NCBI GenBank assembly: GCA_902800905.1
Contig: CADCGC010000007.1
Coordinates: forward strand, 1 to 53,097
Source of the DNA: an uncultured Erysipelotrichaceae bacterium
GTDB lineage: Bacteria > Bacillota_I > Bacilli_A > RFN20 > CAG-826
DNA length: 53,097 nucleotides
Direction: 5' to 3'
Under the pieces are notes generated by a model. That model did not search any database. It saw only the letters and a program-made list of their open reading frames with translations, and was not told the DNA's origin. The position numbers and the translations under genes are program-made. This document shows positions 2,541 to 10,006 of the stretch, piece by piece. The number at the start of each line of letters is the position of its first letter. Positions within the stretch are counted from its first letter, which is position 1.

Positions 2541-3344
2541 ATGGAATCAAGTGTATACGATGAATTAATAATTAAAACTTTAGGATCTAGTCACATTAAA
2601 GAAGGAACTGTTTATTATGACGAGATTTATGAGGAAGCGCTAATAAAAAGCCTGAAAGAACATGGTGTTTATAAAAACTATAGAGGAGAATTAGGCAAAA
2701 ACTCAAAAGGAACAAAAATGTGTTCGATCGCATCAAGCTCGCGCTTTTGTTTTCTAGCCTCAAAAACAATTCTAAAGGATATTGATGAACACGAAAAAAC
2801 TGATTTAAAAAACGGATGTTGTATTCCTCATTTCGACGGATATGATAGTAAACACAATATTTATTACGAGTTTAAATGTCATGAGTTTTGTGAAAGAGAT
2901 GGCAGTATAAGCCATACTAAATTAACATCCATGGATTACATCCCTTTGTTGAAGAATATTTTTAACGTTGATTGTGATGATCCATCAACTTTAAAATTCT
3001 CTGATTTAAGGCTCTCAATTGATAACGATCCAATGATCAACAAAATCAATTTCGATTTTAAACAATTCCTTTGTCATATTATTGGTCTACTGAGCATCGC
3101 AACTAAAGAGAATAAACCAACGTTGAATTATGTATGGATTACTCCTTATGAACCAGACAATAAAGAATTAAACGAGTTTATTTCTTTTATGAAAAAACAA
3201 ATAAATGACATTTTTCTAAAAACCTCAGAACTTGATATCTTCACATCTAATGAAAAAGGAAAGATTAAAGACTTTATAAACTTCGCTTGCGATATTATTC
3301 CTGCCAACAATATCCCTGATTTTGTGTTGGAGAGCATTAAGTGA
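2541..3344 (+). CDS. PD-(D/E)XK-like putative restriction endonuclease, copy 1
   Basis: A 267-residue protein. ATG 2541 is chosen over the GTG at 2529 because a GGAGG site (2530-2534) stands 6 bases upstream. Asp99 (PHFDGYD), Glu110 and Lys112 (YYEFKCHE) form a D-x10-E-x-K pattern typical of PD-(D/E)XK nucleases. The SIASSSRFC block (62-70) and FDFKQFLCHI (171-180) recur in the gene at 4238, so the two are paralogues. The layout recalls stand-alone restriction-endonuclease-like proteins (PGN_0703-like), but that name is from memory. No methyltransferase is nearby. A WYL regulator follows after one base. The nuclease role is inferred from the motif. Confidence 0.6.
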   Translation: MESSVYDELIIKTLGSSHIKEGTVYYDEIYEEALIKSLKEHGVYKNYRGELGKNSKGTKMCSIASSSRFCFLASKTILKDIDEHEKTDLKNGCCIPHFDGYDSKHNIYYEFKCHEFCERDGSISHTKLTSMDYIPLLKNIFNVDCDDPSTLKFSDLRLSIDNDPMINKINFDFKQFLCHIIGLLSIATKENKPTLNYVWITPYEPDNKELNEFISFMKKQINDIFLKTSELDIFTSNEKGKIKDFINFACDIIPANNIPDFVLESIK

Positions 3345-3345
3345 T

Positions 3346-4245
3346 ATGTCAAAAATTAGCCAAGAATTAAAGGTTCTTCTTTATTTGAATCAACGATATA
3401 CAAGAACCAAATGGATAACTATTAGAGAAATAGCAGATTATCTTGAAGTTAGCGATAGACAAGCCAGGCGTTATCTTGAAGATTTAAACACCATTCCAGA
3501 AATTGACATTGAAACAAAACTCGGCCGTGATGGTGGATATCGTCTAAGAACGCCGTTAGATAAAGGCTTTGCGATGCCTGAAAATATTGTATTAGCTATG
3601 TCAATAGCGATGAAACACAACGAAAGAATAGAATCAGTTCTTTCGACATTGCCTAACTATGTTGTTACCAACACTGTTGTGGGTGATAACACTATTGATA
3701 ATAGAGTTCTAGACAACTTAGAATTATTGATTGCTGCTATAGAGAATCAAAAAGAAGTAATATTTACTTATTTAGGAAGGGATAACCAATATTATTGTCG
3801 ACCATATAAGATTTATTACACCAATAGGACATATTACCTATTATGTGCTAATAAGAACGATGAATATCGTCATCTCAATGTAGCAGGAATGACCGATATT
3901 AAACAACTAGGATCTTTTAAACTAGATAAAAAAATAGAAGAACAAGTACTAAAAGAAATAAATAGTTATGGAATCATAAGTGGTGGAGAAAGTACTTTAA
4001 GAGTTAAATGCAAAGATTTAGAGGCGTTATTAACCTTTGATAATTATTTTGAAGGTAAGGGAATAAAAAATCTTGAAGAATTAACTTATTCGGTTTCTAG
4101 TTACAGCGATAATCAACTTTATTATCCATTATTTAGAATAAGCACCAAGCGATATAAGTTTTTAGACGAAGAGTTTAAGAAGAAATATTTGTTTTATTTA
4201 AGAGCACAGATTAAGAGTATTGAGGAGGAAAATAAAAATGACTAA
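3346..4245 (+). CDS. WYL-domain HTH transcriptional regulator
   Basis: A 299-residue protein. ATG 3346 follows the TGA of the upstream gene directly. Residues 5-50 form a DeoR/HTH_11-like winged helix (ITIREIADYLEVSDRQARR), and a linker ends near residue 125. Residues 130-190 are a WYL domain, with the core reading RPYKIYYTNRTYYLL, and a C-terminal extension follows. WYL regulators (the CapW/BrxR type) often repress defence genes and respond to nucleic-acid or nucleotide signals. This one is embedded between two paralogous nuclease-like genes and overlaps the next by 8 bases, so it probably regulates them. The shared motif at 2495 and 5156 is its best candidate operator. Confidence 0.85.
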   Translation: MSKISQELKVLLYLNQRYTRTKWITIREIADYLEVSDRQARRYLEDLNTIPEIDIETKLGRDGGYRLRTPLDKGFAMPENIVLAMSIAMKHNERIESVLSTLPNYVVTNTVVGDNTIDNRVLDNLELLIAAIENQKEVIFTYLGRDNQYYCRPYKIYYTNRTYYLLCANKNDEYRHLNVAGMTDIKQLGSFKLDKKIEEQVLKEINSYGIISGGESTLRVKCKDLEALLTFDNYFEGKGIKNLEELTYSVSSYSDNQLYYPLFRISTKRYKFLDEEFKKKYLFYLRAQIKSIEEENKND

Positions 4246-5131
4246 AAAAAGAAATATTCCTGGATTAGAGAAGAGAAAAAGCAAATATGATGATTTGCTA
4301 AAAAATAATGAACACAGAGATCAAGATTTTCGTGATGATTTCGAAGTCTATTTTAAAGAAGAAGTGTTTGAGAATGAAATTATAAGTAAAATGCTTCCAG
4401 AACACAAAAAATCTTATGATGATGGTGCGGGATCAGAATTAAAAGAACATACATATAAAGGGAAAAAGTTACCTCCTTCTATGTCATCGGTTGCATCTTC
4501 ATCTAGGTTTTGTTATTTATCGTTAAAAGACAGTAATCTAAAAGTATTTGGGATAAATAATAAGAATCATAATATTAAATTTGAAGAAAAGCTTCCTATT
4601 TTAGAAGATAATGAAAAAGGTACTCCGCCACATATGGATGCTTTTTATGAGGATGAACTAAGTGGCTATTTTTTTGAATGTAAATGTCATGAACAATTTG
4701 ACTCACATAAAATAATGCTAAGAAAAACATATTTCGACAGCGATCGAATAGTGACCAAGATTGATAAAAAATATTATTTAGAATGCAATGATGATAAATA
4801 TTATAAAATTAATCCTTCTGCGTTTGGCTTGGTTGATAATCCGCGATTTGATATTAAACAATTCATGACACACATAATGGGCATACAAAAATGGATTGAA
4901 AAGAATAAAAAGAAAGCTGTGTTAATTTACTTTTATTTTATCCCTGATAACGTTCTTGAAGAAGATGATATTAAAGAAGTTATAAACGTTTTAGAAGAAG
5001 AAATATCAACAATTTTTTGCCATTCATTTTTTAAGCAACATGCATCTAATATAGAATTCAAATTATTCTTTCAAACAAGCGAGTGTGTTGAAGAGGCAAC
5101 CATTAAAAACACAAAAGAAAAACTTAAATAA
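4238..5131 (+). CDS. PD-(D/E)XK-like putative restriction endonuclease, copy 2
   Basis: A 297-residue protein. ATG 4238 is preceded by GAGGAGGA; the upstream TTG at 4220 reads straight through that ribosome site and is rejected. It shares with the 2541 product the SVASSSRFCYL block (84-94), PHMD with Asp134, the FFECKCHE strand with Glu147 and Lys149, and FDIKQFMTHIMG (204-215). It has a longer, charged N-terminus. Divergence is high outside these blocks, so this is not a recent duplication. Two different but related nucleases with one regulator could form a heterodimer or recognise two signals. The function is inferred. Confidence 0.58.
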   Translation: MTKKRNIPGLEKRKSKYDDLLKNNEHRDQDFRDDFEVYFKEEVFENEIISKMLPEHKKSYDDGAGSELKEHTYKGKKLPPSMSSVASSSRFCYLSLKDSNLKVFGINNKNHNIKFEEKLPILEDNEKGTPPHMDAFYEDELSGYFFECKCHEQFDSHKIMLRKTYFDSDRIVTKIDKKYYLECNDDKYYKINPSAFGLVDNPRFDIKQFMTHIMGIQKWIEKNKKKAVLIYFYFIPDNVLEEDDIKEVINVLEEEISTIFCHSFFKQHASNIEFKLFFQTSECVEEATIKNTKEKLK

Positions 5132-5214: not shown

Positions 5215-5676
5215 ATGGCATTTTTATTAGGAAGAGGATTTACAGGTTTCTATCATTATGGACATCCATGCTTCATTCGTGAAGAATATGAAGCAGTTCA
5301 TAGCGGTGAATCCGAGCTTCAAAGATTAGAAGAAGCTTTAGGCATGTCTTTTTCTGATGCAACCACCGCAATGTATTACTGCTTAACTCATGCCAAATAC
5401 CAACTCTATCGACTCGAATCAGATGAAATTGATAATGAATTATTGAGAGGAAGAGATCCTTGGATTCAATTTAAAAGCGGTTGGGTTCACATTGTGACAG
5501 GTGAGTATGTACCTGATTCTATTAAGCCAAATTATGATTCGTATCCTTGTTGGAAGATAGAAAAACCAGCCTCTAGATATTTTGATTCACACTCTGTTGT
5601 TCAAATTAGCGGGTGGATAGGTTTAGGAGCTGTTCTTTTTGGTTTTCTCGCTGAAATGATGGGAGGAAAGAAATAA
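5215..5676 (+). CDS. Unrecognised small protein with C-terminal membrane helix
   Basis: A 153-residue protein. An AAAAGG site precedes ATG 5215. The soluble part (1-120) is rich in aromatic residues (GFTGFYHYGHPC near the N-terminus, DPWIQFKSGWVHIVTGEY near residues 82-99). Residues 128-149 form one hydrophobic helix (ISGWIGLGAVLFGFLAEMMG), so it may be tail-anchored. The family is not recognised. It is the first gene of a four-gene operon and overlaps the start of the PolC-like gene (TAATG), so the two are probably translationally coupled. It could be a membrane anchor or effector for the PolC-like partner. Confidence 0.6.
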   Translation: MAFLLGRGFTGFYHYGHPCFIREEYEAVHSGESELQRLEEALGMSFSDATTAMYYCLTHAKYQLYRLESDEIDNELLRGRDPWIQFKSGWVHIVTGEYVPDSIKPNYDSYPCWKIEKPASRYFDSHSVVQISGWIGLGAVLFGFLAEMMGGKK

Positions 5677-7079
5677 TGTTTAATGAAAAAGAATTTATTG
5701 AGTCTATTAAAAATAGAGCAAAAGAGAAGAATCTTCTTAAAGAAGCTGAGAAAGAACTAGAAACATACAAAAGGTTTAACCAGATTGAATATTTGTTTGT
5801 AGTCAAAGAGTTTGTAGAAACATTAACAAAAAGCAATGTTCCATATGTTTTGCTAAGAATGGCGGGAGCGTCTTCAGTAGTTGCTTATATTTTAGGAATT
5901 CATAAAATCAATCCGATTGAATATCAATTAACAAATTACTTCTTCTTTAATAATGAATATAAAGATGGTGGATTTGGACCGAGATTTGATTTATGCATTC
6001 CAACATCTCAAAAAGAAGAAGCAATTAGAATTTTAAATAAGATATCAAAGGTAAACCAATCAACATCGGATGCATCAATCATTCGCTTTGGAGAAAATGA
6101 TCAATATCGAATAGGAATATATGGAAACGGATTATTAGACATCTTGTTAGAGGGAATCAAGTTCCATATTAGCGATGATTATGCTAGATGGTGCAAAAAA
6201 GAATTATCAAAGATAAATGAGGATACTAGCTATAAAAAAATTATCGATTTCATGCTTGCACCCGACCAAAAAGGATATTGCCTTCCTAATTTAAATGGTT
6301 GTGTTTTTGGAATACCTAGCGAGATTTATGAACTAATGGAAGCTGTAGAGCCTAAAGATTTAACTGATTTAGCAAAGATTAATTGTCTTGTTAGAGGAAT
6401 CTATAAAAGCAAAAAGAAACTAATTGAGTGTATTAAAGAAAATGGTATAGATGGAACTATTTATAGTAGAGAACAACTCTTTAATCTTCTTGCTAATGTC
6501 TATGACATTGATGAGAATGAAGTCGCTCAGATAATTGATGACGTCATTCAAAGAAATAAACTTACCGAATGGGAAGAATTAACTCTTTCATCTCATGAGG
6601 TTCCAAATTACCTGATAAATCAATTTGAAAACATTAAATACCTTTATTACATGTCTACTTCTTTAGGAGAAATGCATATTGCCTACCATTTAGCAGAAAT
6701 CAAATGGTTAATTCCTGGAGATTTTGAAAAGTTCCTCCATGTACCTTATAAGAACTCTTTTGTTGGACCATTCTTCCATATTAATAAGAAGATTTATTCA
6801 TATAAGGATCCAATTGCTGAACATAACCCAAATGTGAGATTCTTTGATGCTCCAATGTCACATTTTGCTTTCTTTGAGAATTTAGGTATTGATGGTGATT
6901 ATGGCAACTACCCAAGAGGAAGAGTTATCTTTGATAATTTCCATAAAAGATTTGTTGTTTACTTGGATAAAGATTTATTAAAAGACGATATCAAAGCTGA
7001 AATTATCAAGGAATATAACTTAGAAGAAAGGCAAACTGTGTTTAGAAGAGATGTTCACTATACACATGATGGACTTTAA
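5676..7079 (+). CDS. PolC-derived, catalytically dead polymerase-like protein fused to a C-terminal domain
   Basis: A 467-residue protein of mosaic relationship to the PolC replicative polymerase. RMAGASSVVAYILGIHKINP (61-80) matches the PolC palm block that normally reads GSVGSSFVAT..ITEVNPL. The FGPRFDL segment (100-106) falls where PolC has its catalytic DIDLNFSGEYQ. FGENDQYRIGIYG (138-150) matches PolC FGEDNVYRAGTIG. Residues 212-345 follow the PolC fingers up to the AHAAAYVLMA helix, here MHIAYHLAE. The first catalytic Asp is replaced, and the roughly 100-residue stretch with the third Asp is missing. Residues 350-467 are a different domain (YPRGRVIF, then RFVVYLDKD, then DVHYTHDG). The exonuclease, OB and PHP regions are absent. 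The relationship is by eye from several colinear blocks. Confidence 0.6.
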   Translation: MFNEKEFIESIKNRAKEKNLLKEAEKELETYKRFNQIEYLFVVKEFVETLTKSNVPYVLLRMAGASSVVAYILGIHKINPIEYQLTNYFFFNNEYKDGGFGPRFDLCIPTSQKEEAIRILNKISKVNQSTSDASIIRFGENDQYRIGIYGNGLLDILLEGIKFHISDDYARWCKKELSKINEDTSYKKIIDFMLAPDQKGYCLPNLNGCVFGIPSEIYELMEAVEPKDLTDLAKINCLVRGIYKSKKKLIECIKENGIDGTIYSREQLFNLLANVYDIDENEVAQIIDDVIQRNKLTEWEELTLSSHEVPNYLINQFENIKYLYYMSTSLGEMHIAYHLAEIKWLIPGDFEKFLHVPYKNSFVGPFFHINKKIYSYKDPIAEHNPNVRFFDAPMSHFAFFENLGIDGDYGNYPRGRVIFDNFHKRFVVYLDKDLLKDDIKAEIIKEYNLEERQTVFRRDVHYTHDGL

Positions 7080-7081
7080 TT

Positions 7082-7321
7082 ATGTTTGAATTAATTTGTA
7101 TGTCACTTCTTGGTGTTGCGTATGTTAATGCCTGCATTGAAGAAGCAAAAGAAGAAAAAGCATTAAAAGAAAAGGAAAGATTCCGAGATTTAAAAATATC
7201 GGTTTTCTGCTATGCAGTTAGACATGGTCTTAAATATAACGAAGTAGTAAAGATGATTCAGAACAAGAAATTGACTTTTGAAGATATAGAAAAGGATGCA
7301 AAAGAATATGAAGGAAAGTAG
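7082..7321 (+). CDS. Unrecognised 79-residue protein of the PolC-like operon
   Basis: ATG 7082 follows the previous stop by two bases. A short hydrophobic N-terminus (FELICMSLLGVAYVNAC) leads into a strongly charged helical stretch (about 18-35), then a basic region and an acidic end. It could be a small adaptor held at the membrane or packed on its PolC-like neighbours. No family is recognised. Its end overlaps the start of the next gene by 14 bases, so it is part of the same transcript. Confidence 0.55.
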   Translation: MFELICMSLLGVAYVNACIEEAKEEKALKEKERFRDLKISVFCYAVRHGLKYNEVVKMIQNKKLTFEDIEKDAKEYEGK

Positions 7322-7940
7322 AGAACAGTTAAAAAAGAGAATCATTGATGACTTGAAAGACATTAGAAAAAAAGGGATTGCACGGATTCAAAAAGAATAT
7401 GGTATTGGCTTTGCTTTAGCTAAAGAAGTTTATTATGAAGCAGGAGAAAGCGTTGAGGATTATGAACACATTTTCTTTAGAAAAAGATATCCACTTGATT
7501 TCTTTGCTTCCTATCTTGATGCATATTGTATGTACTATCACGAATTTGATTTATCACTAATAAACGTAAGCATAGAAGCACTTATTAAAGAGATAAATTC
7601 AAAACAAGAAGAATATAAGTTATTAAGTGATCATGATAAAAAATATAGTTCTTTACCATCAAAAATAAGAGTTCTTAAAATACAAGCATTAATGAATGTT
7701 GAAGGTATTAAGATGTCCAAACCAGATATTTATAAAAGTGCAGCTGAAAAAATTATTATTGATCGTGATAAGAGAATATACCTTTTGCCTTTGGCGTGTC
7801 TTTTTAGTTCTAATTATTTAAATAAAGTAGTGGAAGAAAGAGAAAAGAATAAATTTACTTCATTTGAAGATTTGAGAAGAAGAACTGGAATACCAGCAGA
7901 AAGAATCGAGTGGTTAATTGATAATGGATATATCTTATAA
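7308..7940 (+). CDS. Protein resembling the C-terminal part of PolC, without the clamp-binding tail
   Basis: A 210-residue protein. ATG 7308 is preferred to 7296 because the AAAAGG at 7290-7295 abuts the earlier ATG. Residues 60-70 (RYPLDFFASYL) match PolC at the segment after the fingers (YPLxYYAxYF), and HEFDLS (79-83) matches EDFDLD. From 118 on, SKIRVLKIQALMNVEGIKM, PDIYKSAA, a PL..CLFSSNY turn and REKNKFTSFEDLRRRTGI (178-195) follow PolC in order, including the final EWLIDNGYI. PolC then ends in a QxSLF clamp-binding motif, absent here. Residues 1-55 differ from PolC. With the 5676 product it covers about half of a polymerase core, split and rearranged. Confidence 0.62.
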   Translation: MKESREQLKKRIIDDLKDIRKKGIARIQKEYGIGFALAKEVYYEAGESVEDYEHIFFRKRYPLDFFASYLDAYCMYYHEFDLSLINVSIEALIKEINSKQEEYKLLSDHDKKYSSLPSKIRVLKIQALMNVEGIKMSKPDIYKSAAEKIIIDRDKRIYLLPLACLFSSNYLNKVVEEREKNKFTSFEDLRRRTGIPAERIEWLIDNGYIL

Positions 7941-8234: not shown

Positions 8235-8441
8235 ATGAAACTTAAAGTCGATTATGTCGTCTCAAATGAGTACCCAGATGATTTAACTATACAAGGATTA
8301 CTCGACTATAAGGATATAGAAGCAGTACCTTGGTTAGTGATTTCAGTTAATGGTGTTTTTGTTAAGCGTGACAAATTCAAAGAATATGTTCTTCACGATG
8401 ATGATGTGGTCGAATTAGTTTATATTCGAGGTGGCGGATAA
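8235..8441 (+). CDS. ThiS/MoaD-like sulfur-carrier protein
   Basis: A 68-residue beta-grasp-size protein ending in Arg-Gly-Gly-Gly. The terminal Gly-Gly is the residue pair that the partner E1 enzyme adenylates and thiocarboxylates. The hydrophobic pattern (LKVDYVV, PWLVISVNGVFV, DDVVELVYI) matches ThiS. The ThiF-like E1 starts two bases downstream. No thiazole synthase (ThiG), ThiH or MoaE is present here, so the end product of the sulfur relay is unknown. It could serve thiamine, a cysteine pathway, or a ubiquitin-like protein tag. Confidence 0.75.
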   Translation: MKLKVDYVVSNEYPDDLTIQGLLDYKDIEAVPWLVISVNGVFVKRDKFKEYVLHDDDVVELVYIRGGG

Positions 8442-8442
8442 T

Positions 8443-9111
8443 ATGGATAGATATGAAAGATTATTAGAATTAGAAACATTCTCAAAAGAAAAACTTGCTC
8501 TTATTCAAAGCAAAAATGTTTTAGTTATTGGCGCTGGCGGTGTTGGCCAACATATTTCAGCATACTTAATCACTAATGGTGTGACGCGTATCACTTTAGT
8601 GGATTTTGACAAAGTTGAAATTAGTAATTTAAACCGTCAAATCCTTTTAACTGAGGATGATATCGGAAAGAACAAAGTCGATGTTGTTAGAGAGACTTTG
8701 TTTAAGAAAAATAGAGACGCTAGAGTGTCATTAATACGCAAGAAAGTTGATGAAAGTAACGCAAAAGAGCTTGTGAGTGGCTATGATTTAGTCATTGACT
8801 CTGTTGATAATTGGGATGCAAAGCTCGCTGTTAGTGATGCTTGTGCTGAATTAAAGATTCCATTCCTCCACGTCGGTGTTGATGGAAGCAAAGGACAATA
8901 TTGCTTATTCGTTGAGAAGTCACTTAGAGATGTTGTTGATGATTCAATCAGATCTGAATCTCGTGATGGTGTATTAGGACCAATGGTGGGCTTAATTTCT
9001 TCTTTAGCGAGCTTACTTGCGATTAAATTCCTAACTAACGACAATCCAGAAGTTGATACTTTGTATCATTTCGATAGTGAGAAGACTCATTTAGGAAAGA
9101 TGAAATTATAA
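8443..9111 (+). CDS. ThiF/MoeB-like E1 adenylating enzyme
   Basis: A 222-residue protein. ATG 8443 is chosen because GAGGTGG (8429-8435) is well placed and the GTG at 8431 lies inside the thiS gene. The nucleotide site is VIGAGGVGQH. NLNRQILL carries the usual Arg, GKNKVD the Lys, and IDSVDN the acidic end. GVLGPMVGLISSLASLLAIK is the classic MoeB/ThiF C-terminal helix. The zinc-binding CxxC pairs of MoeB are absent; only the Cys near GQYCLF remains where a catalytic Cys might sit. It presumably adenylates the adjacent sulfur carrier. It could also be a TcdA-like tRNA enzyme, but the paired carrier argues against that. Confidence 0.82.
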   Translation: MDRYERLLELETFSKEKLALIQSKNVLVIGAGGVGQHISAYLITNGVTRITLVDFDKVEISNLNRQILLTEDDIGKNKVDVVRETLFKKNRDARVSLIRKKVDESNAKELVSGYDLVIDSVDNWDAKLAVSDACAELKIPFLHVGVDGSKGQYCLFVEKSLRDVVDDSIRSESRDGVLGPMVGLISSLASLLAIKFLTNDNPEVDTLYHFDSEKTHLGKMKL

Positions 9112-9112
9112 A

Positions 9113-10006
9113 ATGACAAAGTATATCTTTAAAACCAAATTCGTTAAGAATGCGAAAGAATATTTACAAGCATCTAAAAAGCATTATCAGGTAATCCAAT
9201 TTCCTGATGAAAAAAGAAAGTCAATTCTTGCTGCTTTAAAAAAGCATAGTAATGACTCATTAGAAGATTTGTATGAGTATTATTTGATTTTATCAAATAG
9301 AAAGAAAAGCAAATATAATAAAATCAACAAAGAATGTTTTGAAGTTTGTCAAAAACTTGCTGAAAACGAGTCTGTACGTGGTATAGCTGGCTTAGGATAT
9401 TGCTACTATGTAGGATGCGCTGTTGAATCTGATTTAAGAAAAGCGCTTATCTATCTTCGTATAGCGGCACAAGAAGGCTTTGCTCCTGCACAGTTTAATC
9501 TTTATCATTTGCTTAAACAAAAGGGAGCATATCAAGATTTGGAAGAGGCTAATAAATGGGTGAGGATTGCAGCAGAACAAGAATACGCTAAAGCGGAATT
9601 TGCTTTAGGTAGAGATTTATATATGAACGACAACGAAGAATCACTTAAGTGGTTCTTAAAAGCATATAAGCAAAAATGGATGGACGCTTCTTATTATATT
9701 GGCGATATCTACGCAATGCGCGGAGAAGATGAAAAAGCTATACCATATTTTAAAAAAGCAGTTAGTCAAGGTTACGATGTATATGGAGAATTAGGTGTTA
9801 TATACATGAAACGTAAAGAAGAGAAGACTGCTATATCATGGTTTAAAAGAGGTGCTGACCTTGGCAGTCACGGTTGCTGTGTCCATTTAGGAAAATATTA
9901 CGCTCCAACAAATCCTAAATTAGCGAGAAAATATTTCAACAAGGCCCTCAATATGGAACTAGATTACACCAACGATTACGAAGTATTCTTCAAGGATTCA
10001 AAATAA
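9113..10006 (+). CDS. Sel1-repeat (TPR-like) protein
   Basis: A 297-residue soluble protein starting one base after thiF. Residues 1-90 are a Lys-rich helical head. From about 95 to 285, Sel1-type repeats follow one another (GIAGLGYCYYVG, ALIYLRIAAQEGFAPAQFNL, ANKWVRIAAEQEYAKAEFAL, AIPYFKKAVSQGYD, AISWFKRGADLGSHGC). Sel1 repeats are protein-interaction scaffolds. Membership in the ThiS-ThiF operon suggests it binds a client or target of that pathway. There is no signal peptide, so it should be cytosolic. The exact partner cannot be named. Confidence 0.75.
   Translation: MTKYIFKTKFVKNAKEYLQASKKHYQVIQFPDEKRKSILAALKKHSNDSLEDLYEYYLILSNRKKSKYNKINKECFEVCQKLAENESVRGIAGLGYCYYVGCAVESDLRKALIYLRIAAQEGFAPAQFNLYHLLKQKGAYQDLEEANKWVRIAAEQEYAKAEFALGRDLYMNDNEESLKWFLKAYKQKWMDASYYIGDIYAMRGEDEKAIPYFKKAVSQGYDVYGELGVIYMKRKEEKTAISWFKRGADLGSHGCCVHLGKYYAPTNPKLARKYFNKALNMELDYTNDYEVFFKDSK

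Follow-up and report, generated by a model that had tools for sequence, protein, structure and literature searches.

The 53,097-nucleotide window analysed here comes from an uncultured Erysipelotrichaceae bacterium and is contig C7 of its 1.85-Mb genome, G000. On its plus strand lies a cassette that combines a WYL-domain regulator gene, two nuclease-like genes, two copies of a leader element, and two genes, A and C, that descend from the replicative DNA polymerase PolC (Table 1). A sequence-only reading of the same DNA had described the products of A and C as a split, catalytically dead PolC derivative. Both open reading frames are present at the coordinates given there and on the same strand, with a 79-amino-acid (aa) gene between them that overlaps gene C by 26 nucleotides. 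That reading had not included the WYL regulator, the two nuclease-like genes, the two leader elements, or the differing dissections of PolC found among related cassettes. For nuclease-like gene 1, the listed GTG start at 2529 falls inside a ribosome-binding-like stretch.

Table 1. Parts of the cassette in order along the window.
Feature	Position	Strand	Remarks
Leader element P1	2497..2519	+	TATGTCCTA-N7-TGATATT, exact match; first promoter region of the cassette
Nuclease-like gene 1	2541..3344	+	Likely start ATG 2541; paralogue of the 4238-5131 protein
WYL-domain regulator with HTH_11	3346..4245	+	Pfam, PADLOC
Nuclease-like gene 2, predicted PD-(D/E)XK nuclease	4238..5131	+	Listed open reading frame starts at TTG 4220
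Leader element P2	5158..5180	+	Second exact copy, ahead of the 153-aa gene and gene A
153-aa protein	5215..5676	+	No assigned function; conserved in L024, L094
Gene A, 467 aa	5676..7079	+	PolC palm ~aa 1-165, fingers ~aa 185-352, C-terminal DYGNYPRG domain aa 358-467
79-aa protein	7082..7321	+	DUF3791 match weak, under cut-off
Gene C, 214 aa	7296..7940	+	N-terminal stretch aa 5-53; PolC C-terminal region with helix-hairpin-helix aa 59-211

The PolC origin of both proteins is supported by Pfam, NCBIfam and pairwise profile alignments alike. Gene A matches PF07733 (E 5e-11, aa 12-122) and the NCBIfam C-family models (aa 11-120, best E 3.2e-10), with a weak match of the PolC NCBIfam models over aa 219-342 (E 0.001). 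Its aa 23-353 are collinear with residues 875-1335 of the PolC of its own genome (E 5.3e-13), to which it is 18% identical; one reversed and eight column-shuffled gene A alignments gave E values of 0.31 or worse. Sequence profiles and a structure model agree on a C-family palm and fingers fold. Gene C matches TIGR01405 (polC_Gram_pos, E 4.3e-15, aa 60-209) and HHH_6 (E 4.5e-8), and its aa 59-211 align to residues 1322-1471 of the same PolC (E 3e-13), preceded by a helix-turn-helix-like stretch (aa 5-53). The exact pairing of FGENDQYRIGIYG with FGEDNVYRAGTIG proposed in the sequence-only reading was not reproduced, as hhalign offsets that stretch. A profile of gene A relatives finds a match in 352 of 395 genomes of the class; among the matches listed, its palm part mostly meets frames of ~1000 aa and its fingers part frames of ~1450 aa, which we took as DnaE and PolC, respectively. 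In a tree, a 100/100 branch sets all 12 sampled dead rows, together with PolC, apart from five DnaE sequences. Taken together, profiles and model identify genes A and C as palm-fingers and C-terminal pieces of PolC. Since the genome encodes an intact, full PolC (1490-aa open reading frame, C5) and a full DnaE (1013-aa open reading frame, C30) elsewhere, genes A and C are neither the host's polymerase nor the remains of its polC.

The active site of this PolC derivative has been lost in large part. At aa 102-107 of gene A, PRFDLC replaces the PDIDLN of PolC. The catalytic pair had been described as replaced; only its first Asp is in fact lost (to Arg103), and the second is kept. The block around the third Asp has no counterpart in the alignment, consistent with the proposed deletion, so that gene A does not have the three catalytic Asp residues of the C family. 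Of 36 aligned gene A rows, 28 have a palm and eight lack it; none of the 28 has Asp at the position of E. coli D401. In these 28 rows the first-Asp position is occupied by Arg (22), Thr (2), Ile (2), His (1) or Glu (1); 22 of them have Asp at the second position. A related protein type of 496 aa (33 rows, described below) has Ser (32) or Pro (1) at the first position, Asp (28), Glu (4) or Asn (1) at the second, and Asn (31), His (1) or Thr (1) at the third. A further, 710-aa form carries Ala, Tyr and Asn at the catalytic positions, as read by eye in hhalign. The controls, nine of nine PolC and five of five DnaE sequences, keep their catalytic Asp residues. With two of the three catalytic Asp residues lost, we deduce from the alignments that the PolC derivative is catalytically dead. 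According to a C-family survey, the three residues are absolutely conserved, and fragments and sequences without an intact active site were removed from the data set (PMC3919608); a dead C-family group would therefore have been filtered out of view.

Further parts of PolC are missing, as had been proposed. Neither gene A nor gene C has a PHP, exonuclease or OB domain detectable with Pfam at E up to 1, and the clamp-binding motif QxSLF is absent from all ten cassette proteins scanned, gene C included, whereas eight of nine sampled PolC sequences have it near the C-terminus. Compared with PolC, the window form is moreover split over two genes and carries two additions: the separate DYGNYPRG domain that had been noted in the first protein, and the N-terminus of gene C.

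A search with the WYL regulator identified 12 of 279 genomes of the order, the window's own included, and in 11 of these 12 a PolC-derived piece lies beside the WYL gene. In the remaining genome, G148, the WYL match is remote and partial; its contig ends downstream, and no PolC-derived piece lies in the 7.6 kb upstream of the match. Five dissections of PolC occur: 467+214 aa as in the window, 496, 866 and 710 aa, and finger-only pieces, the last counted by homology to the fingers of gene A. Relatives of gene A comprise 41 proteins, 31 of 448-485 aa and eight of 315-333 aa; the eight shorter aligned rows keep fingers and DYGNYPRG domain and lack the palm. A genome scan for gene A gave seven loci. 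At L026-L029 a gene A-like protein of 188 aa is followed by a gene of 495-496 aa, whose product joins PolC fingers to a palm-like part and to an N-terminal stretch also found in gene C (E 5.7e-27 to PolC). This type forms 32 protein-database clusters of 68-95% identity, 30 of them 495-497 aa long, in a search that scored only candidates sharing most words.

The 866-aa form (G143, G147; PolC E 1e-27) has a PHP remnant, seen as a sub-threshold match, and the 710-aa form (G200, E 5.6e-96) has PHP and palm, lacks fingers, and adjoins a homologue of the window's 153-aa gene. Identity to the PolC of the window genome is 25% for the 496- and 866-aa forms and 37% over 699 columns for the 710-aa form. 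In L094 (8206-10338, minus strand) the 710-aa protein keeps its PHP domain (Pfam E 1.9e-25), and its HLH, TDH and GDVH stretches match the window genome's PolC, so that an active PHP nuclease is possible there. Finger pieces alone occur in G089 and G090, and in G206 (L093) about 60 residues of a 171-aa protein form a finger piece. The finger-only cassettes L090 and L095 encode proteins of 189 and 212 aa, both resembling PolC fingers; L090 also encodes a 79-aa FtsK-gamma-like protein. The gene for the window's own 79-aa protein keeps its place: it comes after gene A here as well as in L024 and L025, and in L093 it comes after the gene for the 171-aa protein. The 153-aa protein is 92% identical to its counterpart in L024 and 68% to that in L094.

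Inspection by eye suggests a nuclease-like gene in all 11 cassettes with a PolC piece. This call is backed by the profile of gene 2 in G000, G118, G206, G089, G090, G143 and G147; in G193, G213, G101 and G200, Pfam matches are weak or none. In the window, nuclease-like gene 1 and the 4238-5131 protein are paralogues (E 9e-9; E 2e-25 with the profile of the latter). An Asp and Glu-x-Lys motif in the 4238-5131 protein (D140, E153, K155) is invariant in 105 rows, and we infer that these residues are catalytic. Unlike restriction and Shedu PD-(D/E)XK nucleases, the protein is assigned to no family by Pfam with E values up to 1 allowed; its PADLOC rows are weak (E 0.002 and 0.0066), as is its match to the core fold. 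The regulator combines a helix-turn-helix with a WYL domain (Pfam WYL E 2.4e-7, HTH_11 E 2.9e-6; PADLOC WYL E 6.5e-14). In three other loci the DYGNYPRG domain, detected by profile, is fused behind a part that looks nuclease-like by eye (L068 2671-3960, L069 8309-9556, L070 9674-10915; Pfam was blank for the two scanned). No WYL cassette lies in the stretch read of these genomes, and the domain may thus itself go with nucleases.

Both leader places in the window match exactly a pattern that was derived from P1 sites, that is, those ahead of the WYL gene. No other site with up to three mismatches occurs on either strand of the window; five Markov shuffles gave a mean of 0.6. Seven further loci have the element at both places: L024, L026, L027 (second copy with one mismatch), L028 and L029, the last with a third copy ahead of its nuclease gene, as well as L093 (one mismatch each) and L094 (two each). 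A second copy is also found in L025, L095 (two mismatches) and L090 (three). Stray sites with two or three mismatches turn up as well, one of them in L068, and the element was not found in L066, L096, L098, L091, L069 or L070. The element is a likely operator of the WYL protein.

Ratios of nonsynonymous to synonymous substitution rates (dN/dS) between the window and L024 (G193) are low: 0.14 for gene A, 0.154 for the WYL gene, 0.118 and 0.165 for the 153- and 79-aa genes, and, for the part of gene C that precedes the stop in L024, 0.187. Among proteins of the 496-aa type, six pairs gave 0.16-0.32. The window genome and G193 belong to different genera, yet their WYL proteins are 96% and their gene A products 94% identical, as against 56% for PolC, which suggests that the cassette was likely transferred between genera recently. 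Cytosine methylases and type II restriction enzymes neighbour L024 and L029, a type I restriction subunit neighbours L090, and L026 is located behind phage tail and holin genes. The dead PolC pair is no local relic. Low dN/dS, the two leader places, the likely transfer and the one site behind prophage genes suggest an apparently mobile, defence-like cassette, in line with the accessory setting first proposed.

We tentatively propose that genes A and C provide DNA recognition for a predicted PD-(D/E)XK nuclease that would cut phage or other invading DNA, within a cassette headed by the WYL-type regulator gene. The proposal builds on what sequence and model support: PolC descent, loss of catalytic residues, a conserved cassette, a shared leader element and low gene A dN/dS. 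The WYL protein would control both leader elements. The two PolC pieces would bind each other and DNA, perhaps a primer-template or fork as PolC does; this binding may load or license the nuclease, with foreign DNA as the presumed target. A nuclease complex with PolC-built DNA recognition fits the parts, namely a regulator, a predicted nuclease, a non-catalytic polymerase fold and a helix-hairpin-helix. A more elaborate version strikes us as possible but somewhat less secure: a dead-replicase immune system in which the pseudo-PolC reads the invader's primer-template or fork DNA and passes it to an exchangeable PD-(D/E)XK nuclease, while a signal-triggered WYL switch opens two promoters.

Several observations weigh against nuclease guidance by a dead PolC pair. 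The palm is missing from finger-only cassettes. Most rows retain the second Asp, and one metal ligand therefore remains. Gene C is broken in L024 (G193), the nearest relative; L025 matches 78 gene C residues with an internal stop, close to the contig end, and L093 matches only 36. No intact gene C was found in the three other loci where a gene of the gene A or 171-aa type is followed by the 79-aa gene.

A decoy, a sensor of phage replisomes and an inhibitor of replication had been suggested in the sequence-only reading, and each is a possible role. The dead PolC could act as a guard or decoy that mimics the host replicase and catches PolC-attacking phage proteins, binding of which would free the nuclease or another effector. 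Catalysis would be dispensable for this, the PolC surfaces kept differ among cassettes, and defence or prophage genes lie beside some of these cassettes. However, identity to the window PolC is low in all but the 710-aa form, which makes mimicry of its binding surface doubtful, and no partner is known; we regard this reading as rather improbable. Somewhat less probable still is a damage-inducible repair complex in which the dead polymerase serves as a scaffold, like ImuB in the mutasome, and the nuclease processes DNA. WYL regulators such as PafBC respond to DNA damage and single-stranded DNA (PMC11804915), and the Y family includes dead polymerase scaffolds (PMC12926913), but the ten cassette proteins scanned lack a clamp motif, and the patchy spread, signs of transfer and restriction or prophage neighbours at some loci argue against a repair role. 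An induced dead polymerase might also occupy primer ends or the replisome and halt synthesis as a stand-alone abortive-infection effector. The modelled palm and fingers fold and the PolC C-terminal region are retained; without the clamp-binding motif usual in PolC, without a PHP domain (Pfam) in the window form, and with finger-only forms in existence, we consider it unlikely. That the pieces are the decaying, non-functional remains of a polC copy, duplicated or captured, is already disfavoured and highly improbable: gene C is broken in G193 (so that decay without conserved homologues, the outcome that would have undone the sequence-only reading, holds in part for gene C, though not for gene A) and reduced in L025 and L093, and fragments vary between cassettes, but the length-conserved gene A relatives and 496-aa clusters, the gene A dN/dS, and the recurring gene order and leader elements speak against it.

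Known systems offer partial parallels. Like ImuB and other inactive Y-family homologues (PMC12926913, PMC3919608), the cassette keeps a catalysis-less DNA polymerase homologue in an accessory operon. Unlike ImuB, it has a C-family rather than a Y-family fold, no clamp motif was found, and its companions are nuclease-like and WYL genes rather than a RecA-like protein and DnaE2. It shares with BrxR/CapW a helix-turn-helix and WYL regulator, an accessory cassette and conserved leader elements, and BrxR-type WYL regulators adjoin defence systems (PMC9122601). In contrast to BrxR/CapW defence operons, genes A and C belong to no system named in PADLOC-DB, and each matches none of its 2.0.0 families at E up to 1; among 36 gene A rows, one matches PDC-M24B (E 9e-4) and one a CARF profile (E 0.004).

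Two further groups of genes lie outside the cassette. Downstream, at 8235-10006, a small carrier protein (ThiS-like, 68 aa) is encoded with an activating enzyme (ThiF/MoeB-like, 226 aa) as a pair, together with Sel1-repeat genes. The PADLOC profiles for Csx1 (E 1.6e-13) and Cas12f (E 7.5e-12) both match a 434-aa open reading frame at 70-1374, near a tRNA-His (1634-1709); it probably encodes a TnpB-type transposon protein.

In the parts of the open-access full-text literature searched, neither a dead C-family polymerase nor a cassette of this kind appeared; PMC12926913 deals with Y-family homologues and PHP domains that are inactive, and the portion seen mentions no inactive C-family polymerase. 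The PolC-derived dead pair likely helps to recognise invading DNA, a use of PolC not described in that literature. For the C family, it would be new to see a dead replicase retained, and variously re-cut, within a single cassette that is apparently mobile. Should the dead PolC direct a nuclease to DNA under replication, this would offer a way to tell foreign from host replication.
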